From IMG/VR virus record IMGVR_UViG_3300021375_001117, positions 1 through 52,778 of that record: a DNA stretch of 52,778 bases. One strand, written 5' to 3'. Positions 3,882 to 52,778 of the stretch are shown piece after piece. How positions within the stretch are numbered: the first letter of the stretch is position 1; each line of letters begins with the position of its first letter. The translations under genes were made by a program, and so were the position numbers. The notes beneath the pieces are model-generated. The model was not told the origin of the DNA. It was given only the letters and a program-made list of their open reading frames with translations, and made no database searches. Source of the stretch: a virus.

Positions 3882-4532
3882 TTATCTTTGGTATTGAGGT
3901 CTATTCTTTAACGAGTTTTTGCTATAGTCTTTAATACCTCTAGAAATTGCTCCTACTCCTGGTATCTTTCCTGCATCTCTCATTACTGCATTTGCTAAAT
4001 CTTTACCAGCCGCCGCACCACCGGCAACTGATCCAGTGGACATAGCAGAGCCTATGCCTTGTATTGCTTTACCAGTATCGGTATCTCCTATAACATCGCC
4101 TATTGTTCTATCTCTATAGTAACGTGGATCTCTTAATGTTCTACCATCAGAACCACGCCTAAACCCACCATCAGATGTGTTGCCTTGACCTGTGATGTTT
4201 TGCATTCTTCTATCTGTTTCAGCCTGAGCCTTTTTGGTAATATCTTTAAGGTCTTGTTTTAACTCGCTCCAAGTTGAATCTTGGTTAAGTTGAGTAACAA
4301 TATCTGTTCCTCTCATACTTTTTGTGTCTAAATCAATACCTTTTGATCTTAATATCATACCTGTTCTTTCTTGGGCAAGACCTACCACTGTGGGTTCATC
4401 CGCAGTTGGATCCTGCGTTCTTACTATTTGATATTGTTGAGTAAACAGTCTTTGATATTCAGGGTATTGGTTGAATAACTGAAAAATATCCCTTATTGCT
4501 TCTGCTTCTTTTAAAATCTGCTCTATTAACAT
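3882..4532 (-). CDS. Hypothetical protein, 216 aa
   Basis: Not recognised. The N-terminal half is helical and charged (LIEQILKEAEAIRDIFQLF at the start); the middle is polar and Gly/Arg-rich (GGFRRGSDGRTLRDPRYYR); the C-terminal part has a Gly/Ala-rich segment around 165-180. It is a late gene: the start codon sits 5 bp after GATAAATA. A virion or injected protein is possible from its expression class only. Confidence 0.55.
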   Translation of the reverse strand: MLIEQILKEAEAIRDIFQLFNQYPEYQRLFTQQYQIVRTQDPTADEPTVVGLAQERTGMILRSKGIDLDTKSMRGTDIVTQLNQDSTWSELKQDLKDITKKAQAETDRRMQNITGQGNTSDGGFRRGSDGRTLRDPRYYRDRTIGDVIGDTDTGKAIQGIGSAMSTGSVAGGAAAGKDLANAVMRDAGKIPGVGAISRGIKDYSKNSLKNRPQYQR

Positions 4533-4537
4533 AACTA

Positions 4538-4545
4538 TATTTATC
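4538..4545 (-). promoter_or_regulatory. Late promoter, leaderless type
   Basis: GATAAATA then TAGTT then ATG at 4532 (minus strand). No Shine-Dalgarno site. Confidence 0.72.
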
Positions 4546-15264: not shown

Positions 15265-15433
15265 TGTTCCTCGTTTGGTCTTTACTTGCATCTAGTTTCT
15301 CAAAAGTTTTATCATACCAAGCATTGCTACAGTATGCATCACAGAATACATTCATTTGATCCGGAGTGTGATACTTAATGTCCATTACATTTAACAGTTT
15401 ATCGCACTCTGCACATTTGAGGAATCTACTCAC
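15251..15433 (-). CDS. Small zinc-ribbon protein, 60 aa
   Basis: Two cysteine pairs (CAEC near residue 7, and CDAYC near 31-35) suggest a zinc-binding knuckle; the rest is short and polar. Overlaps the APRT gene (15426-15433) and the gene downstream. Function unknown; possibly a small nucleic-acid or protein adaptor. Confidence 0.55.
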   Translation of the reverse strand: MSRFLKCAECDKLLNVMDIKYHTPDQMNVFCDAYCSNAWYDKTFEKLDASKDQTRNNGST

Positions 15434-15962
15434 CTTCGAACTCCGTCAATGTCCTAACATCATATCCTGATTGTTTTATTATAGCACTTCCTCCCAAATT
15501 GGGCAAGTCTATTACTGCTAAAATTAAAATATTCTTTTTAGGTATCTTGAAATTTTCGTGTATTAAATCTGCACAGGTAATTGCTGTACCTCCTGTAGCA
15601 ATTAAATCATCTATAATAATCACATTGCCTTTGATAGGTGATATCTTTTGTATATGTAATTCAGATGTTCCATATTCCAGTTCGTATTCTTTTCTGTATG
15701 TAGGATTAGGTAACTTACCTGGTTTCCTAGCAAGTATGAAAGGAATATTTTTACTTGATGCAATAGTTGAACCAAATATAAATCCTCTGCTTTCAATTCC
15801 TACAATACAGTCAGCAACTGTTAAATTACAAATATCTTCAAACTCTTTATTGACTAAAGTAAATGCTTCAGGTGTTTCCAACAAACTTGTTATATCTCTA
15901 AACTGAACTCCTTCAATAGGAAAGTCTGAGACTGTTCTAATATATTTGTTTAACTTAGTCAT
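15426..15962 (-). CDS. apt: Adenine phosphoribosyltransferase
   Basis: 178 residues, full APRT length. Seen: VSDFPIEGVQFRDITSLL at the N-terminus (typical APRT), GIESRGFIFG near 56, KPGKLP loop, and the PRPP-binding motif VIIIDDLIATGGTA near 114-127. It converts adenine and PRPP to AMP in the cytoplasm. It follows metK with an 8-base overlap. MTA produced from SAM use can be cleaved to adenine, so the pair may recycle SAM by-products into AMP for phage DNA synthesis (inference). Confidence 0.93.
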   Translation of the reverse strand: MTKLNKYIRTVSDFPIEGVQFRDITSLLETPEAFTLVNKEFEDICNLTVADCIVGIESRGFIFGSTIASSKNIPFILARKPGKLPNPTYRKEYELEYGTSELHIQKISPIKGNVIIIDDLIATGGTAITCADLIHENFKIPKKNILILAVIDLPNLGGSAIIKQSGYDVRTLTEFEGE

Positions 15963-17052
15963 TAAAGATATCTACTTGTTCCCAAGGCATATCTTCTTTA
16001 CCAAAGTGTCCATAGTTAGTAGTCTTAGTCAAGTCTAATTTAAACAAATCAAATTTTTCAATTATACCTTTTGGTGTTAAATCAATGTTATTCATAAAAT
16101 AATCTGCAAACTCTTTCCTTACTTCACCATCTGCATACACATATATACTAGTTGGTTCTTTTACACCAATAGCATAACTTAATTGTACTGTGGCATTCTT
16201 TGCCTTGCCACTTGCTACAATATTCTTTGCTAAGTAACGTGCCATATAAGCCGCACTTCTGTCTACTTTGGTACAGTCTTTACCACTAAATGCTCCGCCA
16301 CCGTGTGGTGCATAACCACCATAAGTATCTACAATAATTTTTCTGCCTGTTAATCCTGTGTCTCCATCTGGGCCACCAATTACAAATCTGCCTGTTGGAT
16401 TAATTAACCATTCAGTTTTTAATAGGTGTACTTTGTCTTTAACAACGGGCAGTATAATGTCCATTACACGTTCTCTAACGTCTTCTATGCTTACTTCTTC
16501 ACTGTGCTGAGTACTACATACCACCGTCTTAATATCAATTGGTACACCCACGCCGTCGTAGTTAAATGTAACCTGTGCTTTGCTGTCAGGCCCTAACCAA
16601 TCTGCTCCATTGCGTCTAGCATTTTCTAATGCCTTTAGTATTTCGTGACTGTAATAAATTGCACTTGGCATATAGTTGGGTGTCTCATCACAGGCATAAC
16701 CAAACATTAAGCCTTGGTCACCAGCACCGAAGTCGTCGGTACCCAAAGCAATATCAGGCGATTGTCCGTGTAGTTCATTGTAAACAGCCATCTTGGCCCA
16801 ATGAAATCCATCTTGCTCATAGCCAATATCCTTAACAACGTTTCTCACAATATGTTCAATAACATCTTTATCAAACTTATCACTTTTGTATTCACCTGCT
16901 AGTGTGACCATATTTGTAGTAACTAAAGTTTCTACTGCCGCCCTGTGAGTAATCTTACCGTCGATAAGATATGTTGCTACTGCATCTGATATGTGGTCTG
17001 AAATTTTATCAGGGTGTCCACTACTAACACTTTCGCTTGTAAATTCGTACAT
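15955..17052 (-). CDS. metK: S-adenosylmethionine synthetase
   Basis: 365 residues, slightly short of the usual 380-400. Starts YEFTSESVSSGHPDKISD, contains the ATP motif GAGDQGLMFGYA near 110 and the phosphate loop GGGAFSGKDCTKVDRSAAYM near 245. It makes SAM from methionine and ATP. ATG shares its A with the mazG stop. In a phage this could feed DNA/RNA methylation or compensate for a SAM-limited host; no methyltransferase is visible in this window. Confidence 0.95.
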   Translation of the reverse strand: MYEFTSESVSSGHPDKISDHISDAVATYLIDGKITHRAAVETLVTTNMVTLAGEYKSDKFDKDVIEHIVRNVVKDIGYEQDGFHWAKMAVYNELHGQSPDIALGTDDFGAGDQGLMFGYACDETPNYMPSAIYYSHEILKALENARRNGADWLGPDSKAQVTFNYDGVGVPIDIKTVVCSTQHSEEVSIEDVRERVMDIILPVVKDKVHLLKTEWLINPTGRFVIGGPDGDTGLTGRKIIVDTYGGYAPHGGGAFSGKDCTKVDRSAAYMARYLAKNIVASGKAKNATVQLSYAIGVKEPTSIYVYADGEVRKEFADYFMNNIDLTPKGIIEKFDLFKLDLTKTTNYGHFGKEDMPWEQVDIFND

Positions 17053-17351
17053 TATAAATCTCCTTCTTTAACAAAGACTCCGTCAACCATTTTTCCTTTT
17101 CTGTCTTTGATGTCGTTATATGCTTGTTCCAAACAATCTTCGATACTGAGATTGTTTCGTTCAGCAATGTTAATTAATACTACAATCATATCACCTATAT
17201 CATCTGCTACATCATTGCCTTTACAGATATTATCACTAAGTTCGCCCATTTCTTGAATAAGTTTTGCTAGTTGATCCTTATCTGTTGCACCATCGATTAG
17301 GTTCCTGTCGTGATGCCATTGTGTAATTTTGGATATGTATTCTTCTACCAT
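17052..17351 (-). CDS. MazG-like nucleotide pyrophosphohydrolase
   Basis: 99 residues, single MazG-type domain. LAKLIQEMGELSDNI near 28 supplies the EExxE-like helix and DDIGDMIVVLINI near 50 the ExxD-like second metal helix. Such enzymes hydrolyse non-canonical or excess NTPs, or (p)ppGpp-related nucleotides in some proposals for marine phages. Coupled by one-base stop/start overlaps to the fusion gene and to metK. Confidence 0.85.
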   Translation of the reverse strand: MVEEYISKITQWHHDRNLIDGATDKDQLAKLIQEMGELSDNICKGNDVADDIGDMIVVLINIAERNNLSIEDCLEQAYNDIKDRKGKMVDGVFVKEGDL

Positions 17352-18127
17352 TATAGTTTTCCTTCTTCTCTCATTTGTTCACGTATTTTTGTAGCACTGA
17401 TATCGTGTATAGCATCGTCAAAAACTTCTTGCTCAATTTTATATCCAACATCTCTACCATACGTTATGTTTAGGAGGTTAGGTACAACCTCTATTTTTAC
17501 TTTACCAGCAAAGTTACACAAACTCTGTTGTAAGTTTTCTATAACTTCATATGCTGGAAAAGGATTCTTTTCATCTGTTGGCATATCTCTAACCATCAAA
17601 AACACTTGTCCGTGTTTGGCTAATGCTCTATCAAACAATGCTTGATGTCCAGGATGCCAAGGTTGGAATCTGCCAAGCATCTGTGTAGTAGGTGCTTTGT
17701 TATCCCAAATAAATCGTTGTCCAATTTCATAAGCAATTATTTTAGCATCTACATCACCACGTTGTTCGTGTACATTGTAGTCTGTGGCATAAGGTCTTTC
17801 AAACACTTTGTTTGTATCTTCAAACCTACCTTCTTTAATAGTGTCAATAAACACTTCATAATCTGCATCAAACTCTATTCTTGCATTTCTAAAAGGACAT
17901 ACAAAGTCTGCTATTGCTATTTTGCCTTCTGCTTCTGCTTCAGCACATAAGTCTACCATTCTTTGTTTTTGTCTGAATCTACCTTCTTCAGAAAAGTCCC
18001 AGTCGTCTGCTTCTTCTCTAACTTTATCTGCGTTGAACCAAGCAACTTTATCGCCTAAGTATTCAACTAGTCGTTCTGCTAAATATGTTTTACCACTTCC
18101 TGGTAAACCAAATATTAAAACTCTCAT
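17351..18127 (-). CDS. P-loop kinase (APS-kinase-like) fused to HxGH nucleotidyltransferase
   Basis: 258 residues, two domains. N-terminal (1-135): Walker A LIFGLPGSGKTYLAERL, FNADKVREEADDWDFSEEGR, the pattern of adenylylsulfate kinases. C-terminal (145-258): GRFQPWHPGHQALF (HxGH) and ISATKIREQM (ISxTxxR), the two signature motifs of NMN/cytidylyl/adenylyl transferases. The domain order equals that of animal PAPS synthetases (kinase then sulfurylase), but the second domain looks closer to the NMN-adenylyltransferase type; a NadR-like NAD salvage enzyme in reverse order is the main alternative. Member of the uvsW-mazG-metK-apt operon. Confidence 0.78.
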   Translation of the reverse strand: MRVLIFGLPGSGKTYLAERLVEYLGDKVAWFNADKVREEADDWDFSEEGRFRQKQRMVDLCAEAEAEGKIAIADFVCPFRNARIEFDADYEVFIDTIKEGRFEDTNKVFERPYATDYNVHEQRGDVDAKIIAYEIGQRFIWDNKAPTTQMLGRFQPWHPGHQALFDRALAKHGQVFLMVRDMPTDEKNPFPAYEVIENLQQSLCNFAGKVKIEVVPNLLNITYGRDVGYKIEQEVFDDAIHDISATKIREQMREEGKL

Positions 18128-22643: not shown

Positions 22644-22651
22644 TATTTACC
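22644..22651 (-). promoter_or_regulatory. Possible late promoter before bL33
   Basis: GGTAAATA on the minus strand, 7 bp before ATG at 22636, overlapping the receptor stop codon. Spacing and +1 base deviate from the other late promoters, so this is weak. Confidence 0.3.
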
Positions 22652-24386
22652 AATTATATTGCAAAGTAATTAATACTTCCCTACCACGGTTATCATACCC
22701 TGGTAGAACCTCTACAACATCGTCTAAAGCATTGTTTACTTTAAATGTTAAGTTGTACTTACCCCAAGTCTTAGATGCACTTAAATCTAATCTATTTAAA
22801 TCTTCTAAGTAATCTTCTCCTTCTGGTATTATGTCATACTGCCCTGGTGCTCTTTCTAAGTTTACTGCATACCTGCCTGCAACTGTAACACCATTGAACA
22901 TTTGCTTGTATGTGATTGCTCCCATATACTTGGGCACTCTAGGTTGCTCTGTATCAGTATATGCTAACATTACACCAAACGGACCATAGTTATTAGCAAA
23001 TCTAAAACCTTGTGTGGAGTATTCTCCGCCATTTTCATACGTGGCATTTGTAAAAATATCTTCTGTTACAGCAGGAGTTACAGTAACTTCTCCTGTGTCA
23101 GGATCTGTTGTGGTTACTTCTGGCGTAACTATTATTGTTGTGGTATAACTTGGTTGGTACTCAATTGTTTCTTCGAAATCATATTTGAATACACTTATTG
23201 CGCCAAACCCAATCTCATACCCTACGCCTTCTTCTGGCATTAAATCTTCATTACCATCAACCCAAGCATCACCAAACCTTTCATACAAGTTTGCTTTTCT
23301 AAAACTGTTTCCAATGTTAAAGAAGAACTCGCCTTTTGATAAACCAAATCTCATTGCATTTTGGTCATCGTTGCCAAATCTCAAACCAAAGTTGTAGTTT
23401 AAGGCGAACGAGGCATTAACATTTAAGTATCCTCCAAAGTTTTCATCTTCGTATTTGTTTTCAGTAGCACCCATAGAGTTTATACTTTCTGTATTGTAAA
23501 TGTTTCTTTCACCATCTACACCAAATGCAACATTTAGTTTATTGGAAAGATCCAAATTATTACCAAATCTCACAAAGTCTCTATAACTTTCATTTGCATA
23601 AGTAGGATCTTCTACTGTAAAATATTCAGCACTGGTATAGTTTCTGCCTACTGTGATATAATCATTTCTAATTGCTACGTTATATCTTTCACCTAATTCT
23701 GTACATTCGTTGCTTTGACCCCAATTGTAATCATAACAGTTATCATAATCATATTCATAATCAACAAATTTAGCAATTACTTCAAAGTCCATTGCATCTA
23801 TAATAATTTTTGCTGACTGTTGTTCATAAGTATCTTCTTCATCATTATCATTTCTTGCACTAGCAATAGTATCTTTGAATGATGCTACTTCTAAATTGTT
23901 TGATGATAGTTTTATAAATTGATTTTCTATTCCACTGTCTACAATATTTCTCATTGTCAATCCTCTAGTGATTGTGTCTTCAATAAGAACTGTTCCAGCC
24001 ATTGCTCCAGAGCCATACATAACTCCGTTAGCACCACTAATAACTTTAATTTTTTCTCCTGATGCAATATCGTGTCCAAAATTATACCAAGAGCCGCCTG
24101 GTTCATTAGCAGGGATACCATTTCTAAATACTGCGGTATGAACTGTTTGAGCACCTCTTTCATTATAAAATGCTGAGCCGCCATACCCTCCAGCATTGTA
24201 TGTGAATGCTGGCAAAATCGCTGTCAATATATTAGTATCAGTAGCAGGGTTTGTTTTAACTGTTCTTTCTTGTTGACCCACTACTACAACTTCTTCAATA
24301 TCTGAAGCGAAAGCGAATGCTACCCATAATGGTAAGGTAACAATAATCGTAAATTTTATTATATGTTTGTGAAAAAAATCTTCCAT
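22647..24386 (-). CDS. TonB-dependent outer-membrane receptor (BtuB-like)
   Basis: I start at ATG 24386 (MEDFFHKHIIKFTIIV), preceded by AGGA and one base after the stop of the upstream gene; an earlier ATG at 24458 has no signal-peptide logic. 579 residues: signal peptide 1-28 (basic start, hydrophobic 12-26, AFA-S), TonB box EEVVVVG at 31-37, plug domain (about 40-155: ERGAQTVHTAVFRNGIPANE, VISGANGVMYGSGAMAGTVL), then alternating beta-barrel strands ending LITLQYNW with the C-terminal aromatic of OM proteins. About 440-460 there is a Thr/Pro-rich loop (PEVTTTDPDTGEV). BtuB size. Embedded in the gp32-uvsX operon, so a true phage gene. The ligand is unknown. Confidence 0.88.
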   Translation of the reverse strand: MEDFFHKHIIKFTIIVTLPLWVAFAFASDIEEVVVVGQQERTVKTNPATDTNILTAILPAFTYNAGGYGGSAFYNERGAQTVHTAVFRNGIPANEPGGSWYNFGHDIASGEKIKVISGANGVMYGSGAMAGTVLIEDTITRGLTMRNIVDSGIENQFIKLSSNNLEVASFKDTIASARNDNDEEDTYEQQSAKIIIDAMDFEVIAKFVDYEYDYDNCYDYNWGQSNECTELGERYNVAIRNDYITVGRNYTSAEYFTVEDPTYANESYRDFVRFGNNLDLSNKLNVAFGVDGERNIYNTESINSMGATENKYEDENFGGYLNVNASFALNYNFGLRFGNDDQNAMRFGLSKGEFFFNIGNSFRKANLYERFGDAWVDGNEDLMPEEGVGYEIGFGAISVFKYDFEETIEYQPSYTTTIIVTPEVTTTDPDTGEVTVTPAVTEDIFTNATYENGGEYSTQGFRFANNYGPFGVMLAYTDTEQPRVPKYMGAITYKQMFNGVTVAGRYAVNLERAPGQYDIIPEGEDYLEDLNRLDLSASKTWGKYNLTFKVNNALDDVVEVLPGYDNRGREVLITLQYNW

Positions 24387-24387
24387 T

Positions 24388-24819
24388 TTAATTCCTGTTT
24401 TTAATAGATAATATAGTGTTGGATGCTGGTAAAAAGTCTTTAAACAATTTATCAACATTCAACACCCGTTTTTTATTATTGTAAGACATCCATATCCACT
24501 TATCTAATTCATCTGTTGTTGAAAGCACCAAGCAATTTTCTAAGAGTGCTTTGTTAAACAGTTTTTCTAAATATGTATTTGCTACTAACAATAAATTATA
24601 TTCTTTTGCAGAGTTAATAATATCTATTGCGTGGTCTTCGTTATCATACTTAATAATTTTTAAATTCAAATCAATTTGGTCTAGAGTGAAATCTATATCG
24701 TTTGGTAAAATTAAAACGTCCTTGTAATCAACATAGCCTTTTGTTTCTTCAAAAGTTTTTGCTAAATCAATTCCGTATTCGATTGCTTGTTGCAAATCTT
24801 GTACTTCAATATTAACCAA
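24388..24819 (-). CDS. Hypothetical protein, 143 aa, TTG start
   Basis: Not recognised. The only plausible start is TTG at 24819, overlapping the upstream gene by 8 bases. The protein is acidic and alternates strands and helices (DYKDVLILPNDIDFTLDQID, NLLLVANTYLEKLF, ENCLVLSTTDELDKWIW), an alpha/beta layout. It is followed after one base by the receptor gene, so it is translationally coupled to it. No link to TonB systems can be seen. Confidence 0.6.
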   Translation of the reverse strand: MVNIEVQDLQQAIEYGIDLAKTFEETKGYVDYKDVLILPNDIDFTLDQIDLNLKIIKYDNEDHAIDIINSAKEYNLLLVANTYLEKLFNKALLENCLVLSTTDELDKWIWMSYNNKKRVLNVDKLFKDFLPASNTILSIKNRN

Positions 24820-27774: not shown

Positions 27775-29724
27775 TTATATATCTTTAGTCAAATCTTCTA
27801 TAAAATCGGTAAATTCTTTACTTTCATTTATACTTTCATTTATCTGCGAACCTTGTCCAGACATAATTTTTTTGATTGTGTTTGTTTCAAATTCGCTTAA
27901 AGATACATTATTTTTAATCTTTCTAACACTATTGAGTAGTAAGTATTTTAGACTATCGCCTTGTACCATACTAGTCATTTCAGTTAACCATTCTGTAAGA
28001 TTGGATTCTGGATTAAGTGTTCTAAAGAAACTTTTTGAAATAGCAGTTGTATCTAGTTCTTCATTTACTCTGCTTTCAAAATTTTGTTTTTGTTTATTAA
28101 ATTTATTAAGTGTACCTAATACACTTTCTATTCTAGAGTCAACGAATGTCTCTTTGAAATAATTCATTAGGTCTTCGTTGTCTTCTTCTATGATTTCGTT
28201 TTGTGAAAATACTGCAAGTTCACTTATTGCTCTGGTGTATGTTTTTGCACCTGCTAAAGATTTAAGTATGTCTCTGCTGTTACTTAAATTTTCAACTGCA
28301 AGTTTTACATACTCTTCGTTTTCTTCGTTCATTAAGTTTTTGCTCTTTACAGCATTTAAAAATTGTCTTACTGTGGATAGGTTGCCAGTCATTTCTACAA
28401 TTTGCTCGCCTATTGTGTCGTGGACTTCTCCGCCATTACTCATATGACGTGCCATTGCTCTAGCACCTATCATTGAATTTACTGGAAACTTAAATCTTTC
28501 TCCAGCACGTTCTATAAAAATCTTGCTGATGTTTCTGCTTCTAGATCCTTTGACGTCTTCGTCTACTTCTTTCTTGTGTCTCACGACAATTTTAACGTCT
28601 TGGTCTAATGGTTGGTAACTTGTTTTTCTTGAACCTGATAATTTGCCAAAGCCTTCTTCAACTCTTCTTTTTTTATTTTTTTCTGGCTTATCGTGCTTGT
28701 CTATTCTTTTGGTATCGAATGTATCTTCAATTCTGCCTTCGTCTTTCTTCTTTTTGTCTTTGACTGCTTTTTTCATTGGCTCTTCTTTGTCGCCATCGCC
28801 GTCTAAATCTAGAAAGTCGGGTTTGGAGCCTTCATCAACTGAAGAAATACACTTTGCCATTTCTTTGCACTTGCTACAACGACCTACATTATCCTCAATT
28901 TCGCCTTCGATAGGAGCATCACAGCAATTACTGACTTTACTTTTCCCTTCGCTAACAGCATCTTCTAAGCCAGACAGACTTATTACGTCTTTAACTTTTT
29001 GTTGATGGTCAATCATTGTTTGGACATCTTCATCTGAAATTTCGCCTTCTGAAGGATATCTCCAATCATCATTGACATAGTGTCCGGAATCTTCAACTGA
29101 TGTGCCTAAATCTTCCATTGCAACACCGGCATCGGTTTGTGGTTCATCGCCCATACCCATCTGATATAGAGTATTAAAGATGCTTGACATTGCATCTTCT
29201 ATTAATTCTTTGCTCATAGAAGCAAGTGGTAATTTAACAAATTCCATAGCCAAATCGTTTTCGTATTCGTAGTCATCTTGAGGACCGTCTGGATCGATAA
29301 ACGGTTCATTACTTGTATGGTGATGACCATCTGGATTCTTTTCTTCGTCTGTTTTTACTTCTAGTCCTGCTAGTTTTCTTAATTCGTTTATTCCTTCCAT
29401 TGTTTCTCTCTTAATTTGATAGGCTTGATCCTTTGGTGTAATGTTTTTATTAAATATTTTGTACTCGAACTTCATAAGTGAATCACCTGCTAGTTCTTTA
29501 ATTCTTTTTCTGATAGGCTCCATTTCTTCTACTGTGTGGGCACTACCTCTAGCAAGTTTTATAATATTGTCTTCTGGTTCGATTGATATCATTATGTTAG
29601 GACTTTCACTGTAAAATCTAGTACTCTCTTCTGCATCAGTACTAATTTTGCCTTCTTCGTTAAACATCTTAATACGAAATCCTAATCCGTTTAAAATATC
29701 AAATATATCATTTCCTACTTTCAT
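27775..29724 (-). CDS. Large hypothetical protein with zinc ribbon, 649 aa
   Basis: Not assigned. N-terminal domain (1-110), then INELRKLAGLEV near 125, acidic stretch, a zinc ribbon (NCCDAPIEGE and CSKC near 270-290), the motif KPDFLDLDGDGDKEEPMKKA near 303 (EF-hand-like, frequent in marine T4-like phage proteins), Lys-rich linker, then a helical C-terminal half. It is a leaderless late gene, so probably a virion or assembly protein (inference). Confidence 0.62.
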   Translation of the reverse strand: MKVGNDIFDILNGLGFRIKMFNEEGKISTDAEESTRFYSESPNIMISIEPEDNIIKLARGSAHTVEEMEPIRKRIKELAGDSLMKFEYKIFNKNITPKDQAYQIKRETMEGINELRKLAGLEVKTDEEKNPDGHHHTSNEPFIDPDGPQDDYEYENDLAMEFVKLPLASMSKELIEDAMSSIFNTLYQMGMGDEPQTDAGVAMEDLGTSVEDSGHYVNDDWRYPSEGEISDEDVQTMIDHQQKVKDVISLSGLEDAVSEGKSKVSNCCDAPIEGEIEDNVGRCSKCKEMAKCISSVDEGSKPDFLDLDGDGDKEEPMKKAVKDKKKKDEGRIEDTFDTKRIDKHDKPEKNKKRRVEEGFGKLSGSRKTSYQPLDQDVKIVVRHKKEVDEDVKGSRSRNISKIFIERAGERFKFPVNSMIGARAMARHMSNGGEVHDTIGEQIVEMTGNLSTVRQFLNAVKSKNLMNEENEEYVKLAVENLSNSRDILKSLAGAKTYTRAISELAVFSQNEIIEEDNEDLMNYFKETFVDSRIESVLGTLNKFNKQKQNFESRVNEELDTTAISKSFFRTLNPESNLTEWLTEMTSMVQGDSLKYLLLNSVRKIKNNVSLSEFETNTIKKIMSGQGSQINESINESKEFTDFIEDLTKDI

Positions 29725-41066: not shown

Positions 41067-41750
41067 TTAGACTAAATCGAACTTTTGATGTGTTTTTTCG
41101 TCTTTTGCAACGTAATTTGTATTTATTTTGAGTACTTCTGTATCCAGTTCTTCTAAGGTGCCATTGTTATTAATAACGTCATCAAATTCATAACCTACCC
41201 AATCCCATTCGCTTGAATGAACGTGTTTGTAATTGGTATTCATTATGTGTAATGACTTAGGATCTCCGGTATTTGCCTTAACGGCAAAATCGTACCATTC
41301 TGGAATGTTTCCTCTTATAACGTGATATACTTTGCCACCTAGTTTTTTAATAAAGTCTAACTCGTTCACAAATCTACAATCGCTTATAATTACACACCTG
41401 TGGTTTTTGTGTTGTTGAAGTATCCTATATTCTAAACTGGACAACCATATATCTTTATTAAAATGGTCTCTTAATACATCTGTCCCAATAAGTTGTAATG
41501 CTAATCTAGGCGTAAATCCTTTTATACCTAACTTGCCACTCCAATATAAATCTACAGTTTCTCTGAATTCTCTGCTTTTCTGAGTTTGACCTTCTAGTAA
41601 TTCTCTATCCCAACCAAATATACTTGCACATACACTTTTTAGTGGGCCTGCAAAACTTTCTTGAACACAACCGGATTCGACCAATTTAGTGGCTACTGAG
41701 TCTTTGCCCGAGCCTATAAATCCTACTAAACCGATTATTCTATTTGACAT
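41067..41750 (-). CDS. 1: Deoxynucleoside monophosphate kinase (T4 gene 1 family)
   Basis: 227 residues (T4 gp1 241). P-loop GLVGFIGSGKDSVATKLVES near 7-26, FAGPLKSVCASIFGWDRELL near 33, GFTPRLALQLIGTDVLRDHF near 77, VIISDCRFVNELDFIKKLGG near 118 (Walker B and Arg). Phosphorylates dNMPs for phage DNA synthesis. The ATG is at the stop of the gene upstream. A weak stem-loop overlaps its stop codon. Confidence 0.88.
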   Translation of the reverse strand: MSNRIIGLVGFIGSGKDSVATKLVESGCVQESFAGPLKSVCASIFGWDRELLEGQTQKSREFRETVDLYWSGKLGIKGFTPRLALQLIGTDVLRDHFNKDIWLSSLEYRILQQHKNHRCVIISDCRFVNELDFIKKLGGKVYHVIRGNIPEWYDFAVKANTGDPKSLHIMNTNYKHVHSSEWDWVGYEFDDVINNNGTLEELDTEVLKINTNYVAKDEKTHQKFDLV

Positions 41751-42502
41751 TATCCGATTACAAAGCCTAAATGTTTATTTCCTTCTTCCATATTGTTTAT
41801 AGCCGCCAATAATCTTTCTTTGTCAGCCATTGATTCCTGTTTTAATGCATCACCGTTAAGTGTAACTGCTCCGCCTGGACCAGGTAAACCTCCTGGGAAT
41901 TTACTTCTTGCTTCGCCTAACATCATTTTACATTCTGCTAAGGCCCAATCTGCAATCCAAGGTTTCGCATAATTGTCGTTAAGCAATATTTCTTCAGGTA
42001 CATAATTATATACTCCAACGGAAATATCTTCTTCGTGTTTTATGGCTCTTAGTATTTTTAAAACTTTGGTATTTGGATTAAACGTAAAATCGTACTCACT
42101 ACCAAATATTCTTCCTAATGTTTCTTTATACTGAGCAAATGCATCAAAAACTGCTAATCCACCAATCTGTCCTGCTTGAACCATATACATATTATGGAAA
42201 GCAACATCAAACGGATCAAAGTTAGTACCACCTGTTGATGTGGAACTTACTCCTCTTCTATAAACTTTTCTAACATTTAGAACTTCTGCAGGCAAACTGT
42301 ATTCTTGAACGTCTACTAGAGTAGATAAAAATACATAACTTTCTTCACTTGCAACGTCACTACGAGACCGTAACACATCAATTGCTTTGGATATAGCAAG
42401 ATTGTAGTGTTCTGGATCTAATTCCACATCAACCATACCGTCGCCTAAACGAAGTTTGATTTCTGTGATTAATTTATTTTTGTTGGTCTCGGATGAACTC
42501 AT
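41750..42502 (-). CDS. Putative neck / head-tail connector protein (gp13-like)
   Basis: 250 residues. IKLRLGDGMVDVELDPEHYN then AISKAIDVLRSRSD near 15-50 and LVDVQEYSLPAEVLNVRKVY near 62 resemble the N-terminal part of neck or connector proteins of marine T4-like phages; the middle has FDPFDVAFHNMYM. A leaderless late gene close to gp14/gp15. Exact T4 equivalent uncertain; gp13 is my best guess. Confidence 0.5.
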   Translation of the reverse strand: MSSSETNKNKLITEIKLRLGDGMVDVELDPEHYNLAISKAIDVLRSRSDVASEESYVFLSTLVDVQEYSLPAEVLNVRKVYRRGVSSTSTGGTNFDPFDVAFHNMYMVQAGQIGGLAVFDAFAQYKETLGRIFGSEYDFTFNPNTKVLKILRAIKHEEDISVGVYNYVPEEILLNDNYAKPWIADWALAECKMMLGEARSKFPGGLPGPGGAVTLNGDALKQESMADKERLLAAINNMEEGNKHLGFVIG

Positions 42503-44000: not shown

Positions 44001-45077
44001 ATGCCTAAAATAAGTTTATGGAATCCGGAAAAAACAAACGACTACTATTTTACAAGTAGGATAGTTGGCGAGCATCTGTTCTCAGGTGGCACAGGAATAT
44101 TTGTTCACAAGTATTTAGGTGTTGCTGAAGATGTATCAGACGGAAATGACTATACTCAAAAAAGTCCTTTAAACTATTACGACAGTGATGGTAATAAAAG
44201 AACTGGAGAGTCTGTAATACAAGATTTATTATTTTTAGAAAACAGAGATAGAATTTACAGTCAAGACGTATATGAACTTAGAGGAGCCTACGATATAGGC
44301 GATAACGACTTCGATATGACACAATTTGGATTATTTTTATCCAATGATACTATATTCATAAATTTACATATTGAAAGTATGGTAGATGCTTTGGGCAGAA
44401 AGTTAATGGCAGGTGATGTAATTGAGTTACCTCATCTGAGAGATGATTTATTATTGGACGACAGAGAAGAAGCAATTAATAGATTTTATGTTGTTCAAGA
44501 TGGTAGTAGACCATCTTCAGGATTTGATCCAAGATGGTGGCCTCACTTATGGAGAATTAAGTGTGGACCAATTACAGATTCACAAGAATACAGAGATATT
44601 ATTGGGACTGGAGAAGAAATTGGTGACCTTAGAGATGCTATTAGTACATACCAAGATGAGATTGATATTTCAGATGCTATTGTACAACAAGCAGAAAATG
44701 ATGTACCATACGACGAATCATATCAAGCAGGAGTACACCTTTATGTTAATGAAGAATTACCCAACAAGCCTATTATAGGAACTGTTGAAGGTGCTCCTAA
44801 TGGTGTAGCATTAGTAGGCAGTGGAACAAGTTTCCCTGTTTCGTCAAATGATAACGACTACTTCCTAAGAACAGACTTTACACCAAACAGATTATTTAAG
44901 AAGTCTGGTACTAGATGGGTTAAAGTACAAGATGATACTAAACAAAGTTGGAACAATGCTAACAGAATTTTAAGTTCATTTATTAATAACAGTAATAAAA
45001 CTACACAATCAGATGGTAGTACAATAGATGAAATGCAATTTGTCAGTAAAGTTGTAAAACCTAAAACGGATAATTAA
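44001..45077 (+). CDS. Neck protein, gp14-like
   Basis: 358 residues (T4 gp14 256). QDLLFLENRDRIYSQDVYEL near 75, DNDFDMTQFGLFLSNDTIFI near 95, LMAGDVIELPHLRDDLLLDD near 134 and INRFYVVQDGSRPSSGFDPR follow the gp14 pattern of an Mg-like neck protein that joins head and tail. The C-terminal 100 residues are extra, with a module DNDYFLRTDFTPNRLFKKSG then RWVKV. First gene of the plus-strand late operon. Confidence 0.6.
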   Translation: MPKISLWNPEKTNDYYFTSRIVGEHLFSGGTGIFVHKYLGVAEDVSDGNDYTQKSPLNYYDSDGNKRTGESVIQDLLFLENRDRIYSQDVYELRGAYDIGDNDFDMTQFGLFLSNDTIFINLHIESMVDALGRKLMAGDVIELPHLRDDLLLDDREEAINRFYVVQDGSRPSSGFDPRWWPHLWRIKCGPITDSQEYRDIIGTGEEIGDLRDAISTYQDEIDISDAIVQQAENDVPYDESYQAGVHLYVNEELPNKPIIGTVEGAPNGVALVGSGTSFPVSSNDNDYFLRTDFTPNRLFKKSGTRWVKVQDDTKQSWNNANRILSSFINNSNKTTQSDGSTIDEMQFVSKVVKPKTDN

Positions 45078-45385: not shown

Positions 45386-46740
45386 AATATTGGTATGACG
45401 AACAGTTAAGAAGGTACATACTTCAGTTTGTGAGAATATTTGCAAACTTCAAAGTTAAAGAAGGCGGTAAAGGTACACAGAAACCTTACTACAATCAAGT
45501 GCCCGTTAGATATGCTGATATGAGCAGAATGGTTGCACATATACTTAGACAAAACTCTGAGAATATGATTAATAGCACACCGTTTATTGCTTGTTCTATT
45601 CAACAGTTAGCAATAGCAAGAGATAGAACACACGAGCCAAACTTTGTTGATAAAAAACAAATTACTGAAAGAAAATACGATAAAGAAACAAACAGTTACA
45701 GCACGTTGCCTGGCAACCAATATACTATAGAAAGATATATGCCAGTGCCGTATAATTTAACAATGCAGGTCGATATATGGACTCCTAACACTGATACTAA
45801 GATGCAGTTGTTAGAACAGATACTTGTATTGTTTAATCCAACAATTCAAATTCAAGCAAATACAAATCCGTTAGACTGGACTAACATTGTTGAAGTTGAA
45901 CTTATAGATTTACAGTGGACCAGTAGAACACAGCCTGTTGGAGTAGATGAGCAGATTGATATTGCATCTCTAACATTTACTTTACCTATTTGGTTAAATC
46001 CACCAGCAAAAGTTAAAAAACAAGAAATAGTAGAACAAATAGTTGCTGATATAAAACTTGTAGATAACTTGCAAGAGTTAGGATATGATGATGAAATATA
46101 TGATTTCTTTGGCGATTTAGAAAATGCCGCCAGTGTTATTGTAACTCCAGGCAATTATAGAATTGGGGTGTCAGGAACAGAAGTACAATTACTTTCACAA
46201 GACAGTTTATCAATTAAAAAGTGGAATGAAGATTTAATAGATGCGTATGGAAAACTTAGAGATGGCGTTAGTATTTTAAAACTAAGACAATCAAATGACC
46301 ACGAAGACCATACACAAGACATAATAGGAACTGTTTCAACACATTCATCAGATGCAGATAAACTTACATTTACAATAGACAGCGATACATTACCAGCAAC
46401 AACACTCGGTGACATAGCAAAAATTATCGACCCACAAGTAAACTATCCAGGAGACGGTACACTTGCTCCTGTGTTTGACGGGCAACGATATCTTATTACT
46501 GAAGAAATATCAGCATCAGGATATCCCGATTGGGGTATAGATGCACAAGAAAATGATATAATTCAATACAGTCAATCATCATCTAAATGGACAGTTGTTT
46601 TCGATGCTAGTTCATATTCAGGTACGGTACCTGTTACAAAGAACTTAAATACTAACAAACGTTATAAATTTGTGAGTAATCAATGGATATCCGTTTACGA
46701 AGGAGAGTACAACCCAGGGTTTTGGAAACTGGTGCTTTAG
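45382..46740 (+). CDS. 15: Tail sheath stabiliser / completion protein gp15, C-terminally extended
   Basis: 452 residues (T4 gp15 272). The N-terminal 250 match gp15: YWYDEQLRRYILQFVRIFAN, VPVRYADMSRMVAHILRQNS, YNLTMQVDIWTPNTDTKMQL, LEQILVLFNPTIQI, LTFTLPIWLNPPAKVKKQEI. gp15 caps the tail top and binds the neck. The remaining 200 residues are an extra beta-rich region with W-containing repeats (ENDIIQYSQSSSKWTVVFDA, NTNKRYKFVSNQWISVYEG). Confidence 0.86.
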   Translation: MKYWYDEQLRRYILQFVRIFANFKVKEGGKGTQKPYYNQVPVRYADMSRMVAHILRQNSENMINSTPFIACSIQQLAIARDRTHEPNFVDKKQITERKYDKETNSYSTLPGNQYTIERYMPVPYNLTMQVDIWTPNTDTKMQLLEQILVLFNPTIQIQANTNPLDWTNIVEVELIDLQWTSRTQPVGVDEQIDIASLTFTLPIWLNPPAKVKKQEIVEQIVADIKLVDNLQELGYDDEIYDFFGDLENAASVIVTPGNYRIGVSGTEVQLLSQDSLSIKKWNEDLIDAYGKLRDGVSILKLRQSNDHEDHTQDIIGTVSTHSSDADKLTFTIDSDTLPATTLGDIAKIIDPQVNYPGDGTLAPVFDGQRYLITEEISASGYPDWGIDAQENDIIQYSQSSSKWTVVFDASSYSGTVPVTKNLNTNKRYKFVSNQWISVYEGEYNPGFWKLVL

Positions 46741-47162
46741 TAAAAATAGGCGCAGGAGCAGTTTTCATTTCAAAAAGCACAGGGCGATGTCTCTTACAAT
46801 TAAGAAATAATAGTAATAAAAGAAACAATAACACTTGGGGTCTGTGGGGTGGAATGGTTGACGAAAATGAAACACCGTTGGAATGCCTGCACAGAGAACT
46901 TACAGAAGAAATAGCAGAATACCCAGGCATACTAAAATTAAATCCTATAGATGTTTTCAGAAGCAAAGATAAAAAATTTATATATTACAGTTTTGCGTGT
47001 ATAGTGGAAGACGAATTTATACCTACCCTCAATGAAGAAAGTGCAGGATACTGCTGGGTAGACATTGGCAAGTGGCCCAAACCACTTCATTCAGAAGTTA
47101 AAAAAACCTTAGACAAAAGTGGAACAGAAAAACTTAGACTTATTTTGGAGTTAAATGGATAA
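46683..47162 (+). CDS. Nudix hydrolase
   Basis: 159 residues. Nudix box GGMVDENETPLECLHRELTEEI near 55-77 (Gx5Ex7REUxEExGU with I for the last Gly-adjacent residue). Hydrolyses nucleoside diphosphate-X compounds such as NDP-sugars, NADH, Ap4A or RNA caps; substrate not predictable. The ATG at 46683 lies 58 bases inside gp15; a TTG near 46721 following GGAG is a possible alternative start. Confidence 0.8.
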   Translation: MDIRLRRRVQPRVLETGALVKIGAGAVFISKSTGRCLLQLRNNSNKRNNNTWGLWGGMVDENETPLECLHRELTEEIAEYPGILKLNPIDVFRSKDKKFIYYSFACIVEDEFIPTLNEESAGYCWVDIGKWPKPLHSEVKKTLDKSGTEKLRLILELNG

Positions 47163-48566: not shown

Positions 48567-50471
48567 TTACTTGTAAAGTTTACGTTGTTCGCCATCGAAT
48601 AACGGTGTATACATTCTAACAGGAATTTCTTTACCTTTTACTTTAATTTCACCTAAATTACCAAATGCTATATCAGGGCATTGCATATAAGTAAACTCAG
48701 AAACAATAATTGGAACATCTTCTGCTCTAGTTTGTGCTTCTAATCTAGCACCTAAGTTTACAGCATCGCCAACAACACTATAATCCATTCTTGCTTCACT
48801 GCCCATATTACCTACAATACAAGGACCTGTGTTTACACCTGTGCCAAATTTTACTCTAGGTAAGCCACGTTCTTCCATTTCTTTTTCTAATTCGTCACCT
48901 AATAGTTCGATTTCCATTGCTGTTTTAACTGCCAACTCGGCGTGATTATCACAAGGTATTGGAGCATTCCAGAATGCCATAATACAGTCTCCCATATACT
49001 TGTCTATTGTTCCGCCGTTAGCAAGTACAATTTTTGTCATCTTATCTAAGAATTCATTTATAAGTTCTACTAATCCTTCTGGATCATCTTCCTTCATATA
49101 TTTTTCTGATATAGGAGTAAAGCCAACTATGTCAGCAAACATAAAACTCATCTCTTTTCTATCACCGCCTAGTGTCATTAAACTAGGATCTTTTACAATC
49201 ATATCTACATACTCTGGAGATATATAGTTTCCGAATTGTCCTTTAATTTGTTGTCGTAATTTAAACTGTTCATAGAAATTATTAAATGCTGATTGTGTAA
49301 ATACCAAAAATGAACTTAGTACTGGAAATGTTGCGTCAAGTAACACCAAACTGCTGGTGTACCTATACACACTAAAGTATGCTATAGCACCCATTATAAT
49401 TAAAGATATAGGAGCACTTGCCCATATAGGTGCTCTTTTAACTACGAGTGTGATTAACAGCATACTCATTAAAGCAACTAAGACTTCATATAACGCACTC
49501 AAATCGCTTCTTTGTATATTTGATCCATCAATAAAATTCTGTAGCATAGCGGCTTGTATGTGCTGTGGATAGAGGTTGCCTCTTGGAGTAGGTACAGGGT
49601 TAGCAATACCTTCTGCTGTAACACCTACTATAACAAACTTACCTGCTAAATCTGGTATACTTTCTGCACCCTCATATTCTATTTCTGTAAATTGGTTGTT
49701 GAATCTTATATATGCTGTGCCGTCTGGTTGTGTTATAATTGGTTGGTAGCCTTTAACTGTAATTTCTTGTACGCCTATTTCATTTGTTTTGACTATATAA
49801 CTTTTGTTACCTGTTTTAACTCTCAACATTTCTACAGCAAAAGAGGGATAAATTTTCTCACCCACAGTAATTGCTAATGGGTATGTTCTTGTTTGATTAT
49901 CTGGTTGTGGTGCAGAAGCATTTACTCCTTTACCGTTACTTGCTGATTCTAATGTATCAACATTAGTAACCAAGTTTGGCCACTTTAACAAATAATCTTT
50001 TGCTGGAACTGGCCCTATTGTGCCTGTGCCTATATGAGGTCCAGATGACTTTACGCCTTTTACACTTGGTGTTTGGCTTAGTACATTGTAGTTTACAGGA
50101 TTACGTCTAGCACCTGGAACGTTCATTACGTTCTGTTTCATCATACCTGAAAAACTTTCATCGCCTTGAAATCTATCTGCTTCTGGAAACATAATAGTCC
50201 AGCCTAATACACCACCATTTTTCATAGCAACGTCTACTACCAATTGAGCATAGTATTGTCTTGGGAAAGGGTACTGTCCGTATTTTGCTAAACTTTTTTC
50301 GCCAATGTTTATTAATACAACATCATTGCTTTGTACTAATTCATCTAATTGTTGATAACTGTCAAAAACTTGACCACGTAAACTTTGTAATGCTGTGGGA
50401 TCTATTATTCTTAAACCAAGCAATAATAAAATTGATACTGCAACTGCATACCCACTATATAACCATTTCAT
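48567..50471 (-). CDS. Membrane adenylate cyclase, class III, with CHASE2 sensor
   Basis: I start at ATG 50471 (MKWLYSGYAVAVSILLL), 5 bp after a late promoter; the ATG at 50504 would lie in the FNR gene. 634 residues: TM1 (about 4-22), a periplasmic CHASE2-type domain (FDSYQQL..., LINIGEKSLAKYGQYPFPR, FVIVGVTAEG), three TM helices (about 325-400), then the catalytic domain with MFADIVGFT (metal Asp, about 446), TIDKYMGDCIMAFWNAP (Lys for adenine and second metal Asp, about 495) and MDYSVVGDAVNLGARLEAQT (adenine Asp, transition-state Asn and Arg, 560-576). All catalytic residues are kept and the Lys/Asp pair predicts ATP as substrate. Phage copy is very unusual. Confidence 0.92.
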   Translation of the reverse strand: MKWLYSGYAVAVSILLLLGLRIIDPTALQSLRGQVFDSYQQLDELVQSNDVVLINIGEKSLAKYGQYPFPRQYYAQLVVDVAMKNGGVLGWTIMFPEADRFQGDESFSGMMKQNVMNVPGARRNPVNYNVLSQTPSVKGVKSSGPHIGTGTIGPVPAKDYLLKWPNLVTNVDTLESASNGKGVNASAPQPDNQTRTYPLAITVGEKIYPSFAVEMLRVKTGNKSYIVKTNEIGVQEITVKGYQPIITQPDGTAYIRFNNQFTEIEYEGAESIPDLAGKFVIVGVTAEGIANPVPTPRGNLYPQHIQAAMLQNFIDGSNIQRSDLSALYEVLVALMSMLLITLVVKRAPIWASAPISLIIMGAIAYFSVYRYTSSLVLLDATFPVLSSFLVFTQSAFNNFYEQFKLRQQIKGQFGNYISPEYVDMIVKDPSLMTLGGDRKEMSFMFADIVGFTPISEKYMKEDDPEGLVELINEFLDKMTKIVLANGGTIDKYMGDCIMAFWNAPIPCDNHAELAVKTAMEIELLGDELEKEMEERGLPRVKFGTGVNTGPCIVGNMGSEARMDYSVVGDAVNLGARLEAQTRAEDVPIIVSEFTYMQCPDIAFGNLGEIKVKGKEIPVRMYTPLFDGEQRKLYK

Positions 50472-50476
50472 ATTAA

Positions 50477-50484
50477 TATTTATT
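50477..50484 (-). promoter_or_regulatory. Late promoter of the cyclase, leaderless type
   Basis: AATAAATA, TTAAT, ATG at 50471 (minus strand), within the 16-base gap after the reductase stop. Confidence 0.68.
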
Positions 50485-50487: not shown

Positions 50488-51204
50488 TTACCCTGCAAAT
50501 GCACGTTCTAACATAAAGTCTCCATTCTCACCTGTATTGCCTTCTTGCCAATCTAACTCTGAAAAATATTCTCTACATTCTTTGTTCATTTCAGGAGAAC
50601 CACACGCCATTACTACATCTAAATCTTTTCTAAATGTTCTTTCTAATGTAGGTTCAATGTAATCCCAAAATCTTCCTGGTCTGTCAAAATCTTCTCTGGT
50701 TACAGTTGAAATATATCTAAACTTAAACATATTTTGTAGTATTGCTAATCTCGAATTGTATGCCAATTCGTTTTTGGTTCTCACAGTATGAAACAAGTAA
50801 ACATTTTTAAATTTATTATAAGTTTCTATATCATTAACAATACTCATAAAAGGTGCAAGTCCTGTGCCTGTGCTGAGCATAATTAAGTTAGGCTTTGCGT
50901 GTACATAATCAATACATAAACTGCCTGTTGTTTTAGGATTTACTATTACTTCGTCTCCAACTTTTAAATGCTGTAAGCGACTTGTAAGAGGTCCGTCGGG
51001 TACCTTTATGCTTAAGAACTCTAAGTAATCTTCATAATTTGTACTTACTATGCTGTATGCTCTAAGTATAGGTCGAGGCTCAACATCTAATCCAATCATA
51101 GCAAATTCGCCATTTTTAAATCTAAATGTGTTGCTTCTTGTTGTTTTAAAACTGAATAGCCTATCCGAATAGTGGGTTACTTCAATAACTATTTCTTTAT
51201 TCAT
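50488..51204 (-). CDS. Ferredoxin/flavodoxin-NADP+ reductase
   Basis: 238 residues, the length of bacterial Fpr (about 250). FAD domain: RAYSIVS near 49 (RxYS) and PDGPLTSRLQHLKVGDEVIV near 69; NADP domain: LSTGTGLAPFMSI near 110, FHTVRTKNEL, VMACGSPEMNKECRE near 199 and the C-terminal GDFMLERAFAG. Moves electrons between NADPH and ferredoxin or flavodoxin, for example for radical-enzyme activation or iron-sulfur and oxygenase chemistry. Starts 5 bp after ATTAAATA, so it is a phage late gene. Confidence 0.92.
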   Translation of the reverse strand: MNKEIVIEVTHYSDRLFSFKTTRSNTFRFKNGEFAMIGLDVEPRPILRAYSIVSTNYEDYLEFLSIKVPDGPLTSRLQHLKVGDEVIVNPKTTGSLCIDYVHAKPNLIMLSTGTGLAPFMSIVNDIETYNKFKNVYLFHTVRTKNELAYNSRLAILQNMFKFRYISTVTREDFDRPGRFWDYIEPTLERTFRKDLDVVMACGSPEMNKECREYFSELDWQEGNTGENGDFMLERAFAG

Positions 51205-51222: not shown

Positions 51223-52626
51223 TTAATGTAAGATTGCTGAAAAGCCTGGCAAATTATTTCCTGCCATATGACTTGGTGCGTGATATTGAAATTCATAATC
51301 TAAACTTGAAAAAGGTTTTCTACTTACAATAATCTTTCCGTCTGGTGTAATATCTATTTTTGCTAACTCGGCTCTAGCATTTTGTAAGATATTTTTAATC
51401 ATATTATTGTATTTGTCTTTCTTGTCTATTGTTTTTGCATCTGCTAAAAATCCTGTTCCTAATATATAGGTCATAATGTTTGCACCTGCTGTGCCTTTAC
51501 TGGCGTCCCAACTAGGCTTTCCTGCTTGTTTGGCTTTGGGTTTTATTTCTGTAAGTCCCATATAAAATTTGTGGTCTGCTGGCATTCCTCGAGGTTTGTA
51601 GTTTTCTGCTTGGTCATCATTACCTGACATACTTATAGGGTATACTGCTTTTAAAAAGTCGCCATAATCATTAAACGTTTCGGAATACTCTATTAAATCT
51701 TGAAAGGTAAATGAATCTTTGCCTATTACTAACGACATTGATTTGTGTTCAGGCGTGTCTGCTTGTTCACTACCTGCAATAATTTTATCAACATTTTTTC
51801 CTTCTGTGTCAACAAATGCTCTAAAAAACTTATGTACTCTTTCGTCGTCGGCATCCATTTCAATAGTGCCGGCTTCTGCTTCATCTCTAAACTTATCCAT
51901 ATATTCTTTAATTGCTTTAAAACTTGTACCACTACCACTAGCACTTTTAACACTCACAGGCATACCTGCAATAATTACATCTGCTAACATTTCATTACCT
52001 GGAGGGAAGTCTATACTTTCTGAGTCTTGTGCTAACATTAAGGGAGTAAGTATCTCTCCAAAATCAACACCTGTTTGCCTAACGTCATTGGGATCAATTA
52101 ATTGCATAACACCTTCATCAACTTCTGTTTGTTCCTCTAATGCGACTTCTACTAGTTGTAACAAGAATTCTAGTAATGCCTCATCTTGAATTAATGTTGG
52201 AAGATTTGTTTTTAAATAATTACCTAACTCTTTTTTGTTTAAACTTTTGCCTGCTAGTCCTAAGTTTTTTGGTGTAAGTGATTTTATACCAACTTTAGAA
52301 TTTTGCCTAAGAGCAACAAGTCCAATAAGTTCTTGTCCTGCTAAATCTAAATCTTCAAAATCAACAGGGAAAGTAATTTTAAAAGATTGAGAATACATAC
52401 CACTCAATGCTGGTGCATCATCAAAATTTATACCAATGCCTTGTTCAGTAAACAACCTAACAATCTCTTCTGCATTGTTGTTGATTCTGATGTGTCTTAT
52501 TTTACTAACTCTTGCAACTGACGGTGCTCTTGCTTCTAACCCTAATTTAACAAAAAAAGCCTGTGCTTTATTATAGACTTTAGTCTCAGGTGTTGCCGCT
52601 TCTTGTACTAGTTCATCAAATTGCAT
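51223..52626 (-). CDS. Large hypothetical protein with nuclease-like patch, 467 aa
   Basis: Not assigned. Mixed alpha/beta. The stretch GNEMLADVIIAGMPVSVKS followed by ASGSGTSFKAIKEYMDK near 210-245 resembles a PD-(D/E)xK-type core (D, then xVK) and may mark a restriction-endonuclease-like fold. C-terminal YHAPSHMAGNNLPGFSAILH looks conserved. Leaderless late gene. A virion-associated DNA-processing or structural function is inference. Confidence 0.6.
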   Translation of the reverse strand: MQFDELVQEAATPETKVYNKAQAFFVKLGLEARAPSVARVSKIRHIRINNNAEEIVRLFTEQGIGINFDDAPALSGMYSQSFKITFPVDFEDLDLAGQELIGLVALRQNSKVGIKSLTPKNLGLAGKSLNKKELGNYLKTNLPTLIQDEALLEFLLQLVEVALEEQTEVDEGVMQLIDPNDVRQTGVDFGEILTPLMLAQDSESIDFPPGNEMLADVIIAGMPVSVKSASGSGTSFKAIKEYMDKFRDEAEAGTIEMDADDERVHKFFRAFVDTEGKNVDKIIAGSEQADTPEHKSMSLVIGKDSFTFQDLIEYSETFNDYGDFLKAVYPISMSGNDDQAENYKPRGMPADHKFYMGLTEIKPKAKQAGKPSWDASKGTAGANIMTYILGTGFLADAKTIDKKDKYNNMIKNILQNARAELAKIDITPDGKIIVSRKPFSSLDYEFQYHAPSHMAGNNLPGFSAILH

Positions 52627-52631
52627 AACTG

Positions 52632-52639
52632 TATTTATC
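52632..52639 (-). promoter_or_regulatory. Late promoter, leaderless type
   Basis: GATAAATA, CAGTT, ATG at 52626 (minus strand); the octamer overlaps the TAA of the upstream gene. Confidence 0.75.
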
Positions 52640-52778
52640 GTTTATTACAAGTGTCTTTGGCTTGATTAAGTAACCTAAAGTTATTTGCAACTACTATAGA
52701 ATATAACATATTAGTATCGTTTAGTTCCTCTGGTGACACAGTTTTATAATAATCGTTATACAATAAGCCAGGCAGAAG
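52635..52778 (-). CDS. Partial gene, C-terminal 47 residues (enters from right edge)
   Basis: Read by hand from the right edge: the frame LLPGLLYNDYYKTVSPEELN runs to TAA at 52635-52637 (end NQAKDTCNKR). Too short to recognise. Its stop codon is inside the late promoter octamer of the next gene. Confidence 0.6.
   Translation of the reverse strand, partial: LLPGLLYNDYYKTVSPEELNDTNMLYSIVVANNFRLLNQAKDTCNKR

Follow-up and report, generated by a model that had tools for sequence, protein, structure and literature searches.

A mosaic CHASE2 class III cyclase gene behind a late promoter motif in a jumbo-type T4-like phage lineage

Does a phage gene for a sensor-linked membrane cyclase encode a working enzyme, and on what would its product act? 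The question is raised by a linear IMG/VR fragment of 52,778 bp (hereafter the window, i.e., the whole stretch of DNA that was analysed), in which a sequence-only reading had proposed a phage CHASE2 membrane adenylate cyclase with four membrane segments, an architecture borne out by the Pfam domains CHASE2 and Guanylate_cyc and by four helices in a structural model. The explanation that we favour, and consider reasonably probable, is a late inner-membrane class IIIb adenylate cyclase that forms the last gene of a phage curli/T8SS island and would convert envelope sensing by CHASE2 into cAMP.

Protein architecture and phage lineage

The features of the locus are as follows.

48567..50471, minus strand: gene for the predicted CHASE2-TM-class III adenylate cyclase, 634 aa (ORF, Pfam; model mean pLDDT 85.7)
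49458..50432, minus strand: CHASE2 domain, residues 14-338, the Pfam match taking in TM helix 1 (PF05226)
50403..50453, minus strand: TM helix 1, residues 7-23 (hydrophobic segment and model helix)
49233..49499, minus strand: TM helices 2-4 and exit helix, residues 325-346, 349-374 and 381-413 (hydrophobicity, model)
49221..49346, minus strand: mosaic junction, residues ~376-417, from the sensor lineage to a different cyclase lineage (maximum chi-square)
48627..49157, minus strand: class III cyclase catalytic domain, residues 439-615 (PF00211; PDB matches CyaB 3r5g and CyaC 1wc1; conservation)
50477..50484, minus strand: T4-type late promoter motif AATAAATA, 5 nt before the ATG (motif; spacing kept upstream of many homologues)
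50488..51204, minus strand: ferredoxin/flavin reductase-like gene with FAD and NAD-binding domains (PF00970, PF00175)
51223..52626, minus strand: phage gene with no Pfam or PHROG match, kept in the nearest relatives L002-L007
47940..48566, plus strand: convergent phage gene on the cyclase's other flank, likewise in IMG/VR relatives (relatives' loci)
52627..52778, no strand: contig end, beyond which relatives L003, L004, L015, L027 and L073 have curli-repeat and FecR/CsgG/CsgF genes

The encoded protein consists of one TM helix, a CHASE2 domain (E 1.5e-30, 107 bits, cut-off 26.3), three further TM helices and a class III cyclase domain (E 6.5e-20, 71.9 bits, well over the cut-off). An AlphaFold2 model built on a 35-sequence alignment begins with a helix, followed by an extracytoplasmic domain of mixed alpha/beta structure, a run of three long helices and the cyclase domain, and the four hydrophobic segments coincide with its four long helices. 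The protein thus has the hallmarks of a CHASE2 receptor, i.e., a domain above the curated cut-off that lies extracytoplasmically between TM segments, and this TM layout predicts a periplasmic CHASE2 domain. Foldseek matches the cyclase domain to 3r5g (P. aeruginosa CyaB, TMt 0.87) and 1wc1 (Spirulina CyaC, 0.83), and the structure of the guanylyl cyclase Cya2 is matched as well. An alternative GTG start at 50504 would give 645 aa, the ATG at 50471 being preferred because of its conserved MKW start and the promoter position. The reductase-like gene directly upstream, across a 16-bp gap, is also found near the cyclase in many relatives.

PHROG matches to terminase, sheath, tube, gp32-type SSB, UvsX, DnaB-like helicase and neck protein show that the window encodes a T4-like phage. 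PA5oct-like jumbo phages are the nearest isolates by terminase (56%) and sheath (42%), and their genes follow a similar order in the neighbourhood of sheath, terminase, UvsX and primase-helicase. The 26-87 kb stretch of a 250,519-bp contig (G001) is collinear with the window. The lineage is thus jumbo-type T4-like, and an assignment to pelagimyophages of the HTVC008M type was rejected on the same terminase and sheath affinities and the same synteny. No tRNAs were found in the window.

Other genes of the window include a TonB-receptor plug-domain gene (22647-24458, minus strand, 603 aa; 47% to G001 52682-54712) that has no homologue among isolate phages and whose product is possibly a decoy or receptor-blocking protein; host inference from it gave no usable signal, bacterial matches being limited to the plug domain. 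Metabolic genes occupy 15426-18127 (minus strand) and 46683-47162 (plus strand), namely S-adenosylmethionine synthetase, an APS-kinase/cytidylyltransferase-like fusion and a Nudix hydrolase, together with APRT-like and MazG-like genes (both by eye).

Active site, selection and module exchange

The metal aspartates and the Asn/Arg transition-state residues named by the sequence-only reading are present (D447, D495, N572 and R576). Both aspartates are invariant in the 83 aligned phage homologues, as are K491 (adenine), R576 (transition state) and K612 (phosphate site), and N572 (transition state) is kept in 82, with Melnitz as the sole loss. The Lys/Asp adenine pair of that reading needs correction: the partner position, seven residues before N572, is Ser565, with Ser in 46 homologues, Thr in 36 and one exception among the 83. 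A Lys/Thr adenine pair is the class IIIb arrangement, CyaB (DYT) and the second phage cyclase type described below have Thr at the aligned position, and Ser is plausibly an acceptable substitute. In alignments, K491 lies opposite a Lys of CyaB, an adenylyl cyclase, and opposite a Glu of Cya2 (2w01), a guanylyl cyclase, which makes ATP the likely substrate. The window protein is probably an active adenylate cyclase. Measured against relatives of the same cyclase type only, cyclase-domain dN/dS is 0.036-0.13; the domain is under purifying selection, and the feature is far beyond chance. In the Melnitz cyclase (L083 10001-12052) the catalytic Asn is replaced by Ser and the adenine pair is Lys/Asp, and this enzyme may be weak or inactive.

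The homologues comprise two cyclase types, here called S-type and T-type. Compared with the window, T-type proteins reach ~76-94% in the CHASE2 region and ~42-59% in the cyclase domain, as opposed to 65-70% and 85-94%, respectively, for S-type proteins (e.g., L022). The sensor tree nests the window trio among T-type sequences (SH-aLRT 99, set of nine), and the cyclase tree separates S and T as two clades (98 and 97). Maximum chi-square values for 16 triplets range from 69 to 232, those of permutations (500 each) being at most 19.4, and most breakpoints fall at residues 376-417, i.e., in the helix linking the membrane to the cyclase. T-type cyclase domains are up to 58.6% identical to bacterial ones and up to 50.5% to S-type ones, and S-type domains are nearest HTVC008M (64-66%). 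The same exchange pattern appears between HTVC008M and Melnitz, with 53% identical sensors and 36% identical cyclases. Rapid evolution as the source of the two types was rejected because dS jumps too (0.46 in CHASE2 and 1.33 in the cyclase between the window and L030) and the T-type is nearer to bacteria than to the S-type. Approximately unbiased (AU) tests are moderate, the hypothesis of a single S clade on the sensor having p 0.039 and that of a single T clade p 0.08. Taken alone, the cyclase tree is compatible with T branching beside the window trio. As judged from these sequence comparisons, the protein is a mosaic whose catalytic module was exchanged at the linker while the sensor was retained. 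Both modules have complete active sites, and the pairing of two intact catalytic modules with a single sensor family implies that cyclase output is selected for. In the phylogeny against bacterial CHASE2 cyclases that the earlier reading had proposed, the sensor tree places the phage proteins in a group of their own.

Late promoter motif and curli island

The late promoter motif that had been placed 5 bp before the gene is confirmed, AATAAATA ending exactly 5 nt before the cyclase ATG. The motif NATAAATA lies at exactly this distance from the start of eight window ORFs (2488-2901, 3882-4532, 4545-5681, 27775-29724, 41750-42502, 44001-45077, 48567-50471 and 51223-52626), as opposed to 0.013 expected for any given distance, and the same holds for 21 ORFs of the 250-kb relative G001 (0.054 expected) and 6 in the first 50 kb of HTVC008M (0.010 expected). 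The corresponding counts are 0 in a T4 late region, 1 in a PA5oct region and 0 in P-SSM2, the motif there lying further upstream. Before the cyclase, the motif is retained in T-type loci and many S-type loci, the other S-type genes starting directly behind the upstream gene. In T4, late TATA boxes precede the transcription start by about one helical turn (PMC2988020); given this geometry and the 5-nt spacing, the first transcribed base would be the A of the ATG or one adjoining it, and the late mRNAs would be leaderless. Late-promoter detection in pelagimyophages had failed (PMC7029224). The motif supports late expression of the cyclase gene.

In relatives, the gene order is csgF, csgG, curlin repeat, FecR, curlin repeat, small genes, often a reductase, the cyclase and the convergent phage gene, with CsgF, CsgG and FecR confirmed by Pfam in L015. 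Genes for csgF, csgG, FecR and curlin repeats lie upstream on the same strand in L015, L027, L051, L062-L064, L073 and others, and a homologous cyclase is found downstream of the curli cluster in HTVC008M and Melnitz and in L015, L027, L043, L045, L051, L062-L064, L073 and L078, among others; in the near relatives L003 and L004 a curlin-repeat gene lies a few kb upstream of the cyclase. The window itself has no FecR profile match and no recognised curli gene among its ORFs; its contig ends 152 bp beyond the last gene, just before the position of the curli cluster. In L064 and some other relatives, the operon link is loose because several kb of other genes separate curli from the cyclase. The window's synteny and its PA5oct-like affinity therefore place the curli-FecR-cyclase island in a jumbo-type lineage also, and, in a partial coverage of the literature, no paper reporting it in jumbo-type phages was found.

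FecR lies directly upstream on the same strand in 15 of 71 bacterial CHASE2 cyclase loci, a non-random set chosen by cyclase similarity and limited to loci with sufficient upstream sequence. As FecR with a CHASE2 cyclase is thus also a bacterial arrangement, the pair may have entered phages as a unit. Two further features of the islands are, in the jumbo lineage, a pair of small one-helix proteins of holin-like size directly before csgF (L015 2143-2747, L027 2534-3126, L073 1740-2335) and a small lipoprotein gene between curli and the cyclase.

The search for the gene in other phages, suggested from the outset, recovered homologues in HTVC008M, Melnitz and at least 80 IMG/VR contigs, and the gene is not unprecedented: annotated copies exist in Pelagibacter phage HTVC008M (41% identity) and four Melnitz phages (31%), and the class has been published, a 2022 paper having described the curli (T8SS) clusters of pelagiphages as containing an adenylate cyclase together with FecR and a histidine kinase (PMC9599517). 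Two other papers describe the curli genes of pelagimyophages and Melnitz, with no use of the word cyclase in their main text (PMC7029224, PMC9004378). The HTVC008M cyclase (AGE60353.1) shares the architecture over 98% of its length, a complete Lys/Ser active site, a late-promoter-like NNTAAATA 5 nt before the ATG as in the window, and the last place in a csgF-csgG-CsgB-FecR-like-curlin-cyclase cluster; the identity is ~30% in the sensor and ~64% in the cyclase, and HTVC008M is a 147-kb pelagimyophage, whereas the window belongs to a jumbo-type lineage. The cyclase of Melnitz (QZI94833.1), a Methylophilales phage, is likewise a CHASE2-TM-cyclase following CsgF, CsgG, curlin repeats and FecR, but carries a different cyclase domain, in addition to its altered catalytic residues. 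The pelagiphages of PMC9599517, both myo- and podophages, have an adenylate cyclase that belongs to the curli cluster; the accessible text concerns Pelagibacter phages and a whole-protein tree, and does not contain a jumbo-type lineage, catalytic-domain exchange or the promoter arrangement. Bacterial CHASE2 class IIIb cyclases (SAR86 AG-447-K20, alphaproteobacterial MAGs; catalytic structures CyaB 3r5g and CyaC 1wc1) share domain order and catalytic residues with the window protein, often have a FecR gene directly upstream, and are ~30-34% identical to it overall. Phage CHASE2 cyclases beside curli genes are therefore already known in related marine phages; new are the carrier of jumbo-type lineage, the exchange of catalytic modules under the sensor and the 5-nt late-promoter arrangement.

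Candidate targets of phage cAMP

Under the favoured explanation, the cyclase would be expressed as the last gene of an island running from csgF, csgG, curlin repeats, FecR and curlin repeat to the cyclase, and its periplasmic CHASE2 domain would sense the state of the envelope, probably via the FecR-domain protein of the same island. The signal would pass through the TM/linker helix into a homodimeric cyclase and control cAMP synthesis, so that cAMP would rise late in infection. This scheme draws on what can be read from sequence (domains, catalytic residues, purifying selection, late motif, island in syntenic relatives and module exchange), and from it we infer dimerisation, ATP as the substrate, the FecR partnership and the late cAMP rise. 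Counting against it are the window itself, which is cut off and has no curli or FecR gene, the absence of an effector where one is expected, the missing catalytic Asn of Melnitz and the loose operon link exemplified by L064. The best guess for the target is a host cyclic-nucleotide effector, e.g., a CNG K+ channel, and no phage protein. A phage-encoded cAMP receptor was rejected, as a search of 20 phage records, among them the complete HTVC008M and Melnitz, revealed no cNMP-binding domain; the window record is likewise without one.

It has also been proposed that phage cAMP reprogrammes the host, driving catabolite or global control through a CRP-type regulator. The class IIIb cyclase is intact, and this route would be open if the host were a larger bacterium, those with close CHASE2 cyclases having 10-24 cNMP-binding domain matches. 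However, among 14 small alphaproteobacterial genomes that encode proteorhodopsin, ten lack the cNMP-binding domain as well as the class III cyclase (the other four have both); size, GC (~29-33% in the stretches read) and rhodopsin suggest that these 14 are SAR11 and allies. In SAR86, moreover, the single cNMP protein adjoins the cyclase and mostly has the size of a channel (15 of the 17 positive genomes). Since the phages and most of the small SAR11-like genomes sampled have no cNMP-binding protein, generic catabolite control is argued against, and we regard this route as unlikely. Nothing useful was found in the literature on cAMP in SAR11.

A second alternative is envelope-to-ion-channel signalling, in which cAMP would open a host CNG K+ channel and cause a late shift of membrane potential or turgor. 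Among 61 SAR86-order genomes, each of the 15 that carry a class III cyclase encodes, within ~3 kb on that contig, a 260-395-aa protein with a cNMP-binding domain; the 46 genomes lacking the cyclase have no cNMP protein of that kind and two others (Fisher p 2e-12, these two counted). In two SAR86 loci, the protein is confirmed as an Ion_trans plus cNMP_binding channel with a TVGYGD filter, and, of the bacterial cyclase domains sampled, the one closest to both phage types comes from SAR86. On the other hand, the phage TonB-receptor gene yielded no host assignment, and the SAR11-type host of HTVC008M is probably devoid of such a channel. If the host is SAR86-like, phage cAMP would act on the K+ channel; if it is SAR11-like, cAMP would have no known receptor. 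We regard the channel reading, too, as unlikely. In SAR86 single-cell genomes, the one-to-one pairs of CHASE2 cyclase and channel span L088 9959-15118 and L105 9920-13837, and in L088 DUF481 and MscS-like genes lie between the two.

More speculatively, and with little probability, the phages could bring a complete foreign second-messenger input, in which a conserved periplasmic sensor with interchangeable cyclases would be expressed late, from leaderless mRNAs, alongside a curli pore and FecR, and the cAMP made would act on membrane potential, on curli export or on the timing of lysis instead of on transcription. Its hosts would be streamlined, lacking a cAMP system of their own or having a K+ channel as their only cAMP receptor.

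The sequence-only reading further suggested interference with nucleotide-based defence, and a counter-defence or decoy role could be imagined in which the cyclic nucleotide disturbs Pycsar or another nucleotide defence, or the protein is a phage-side PycC-like enzyme. The best PADLOC matches are indeed PycC models (E 5e-22), but they are confined to the shared class III domain, as expected of any class III cyclase. Canonical purine residues (Lys with Ser or Thr) and a late instead of an early promoter speak against this role, a purine-type pocket and the membrane sensor set the protein apart from PycC, and no Pycsar effector (PycTM or PycTIR) lies beside the cyclase in the loci read, where the neighbours are the reductase and phage genes. 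No positive sign of such interference was seen, and we judge it very improbable; like catabolite control, it depends on which host the phage infects. Finally, although the gene has a bacterial appearance and is close to the end of its contig, a chimeric contig or join with host DNA is excluded, and a decaying passenger gene is hardly credible, given at least 80 IMG/VR contigs with the same convergent phage genes downstream of the cyclase (relatives being the best 80 of 147 confirmed viral stretches, from ~69 datasets), the synteny with the 250-kb contig, the low dN/dS, the intact active site and the presence in isolates HTVC008M and Melnitz.

Marine phages with a cyclase in a curli cluster occur widely across the ocean. 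With a cyclase judged functional by its sequence, an exchanged module and a late promoter, the question becomes a testable one, i.e., whether infection raises cAMP and on what this cAMP acts. It bears on bacteria that seem almost free of cAMP receptors, for which the pairing of cyclase and channel in SAR86 offers a concrete candidate answer as to the target.
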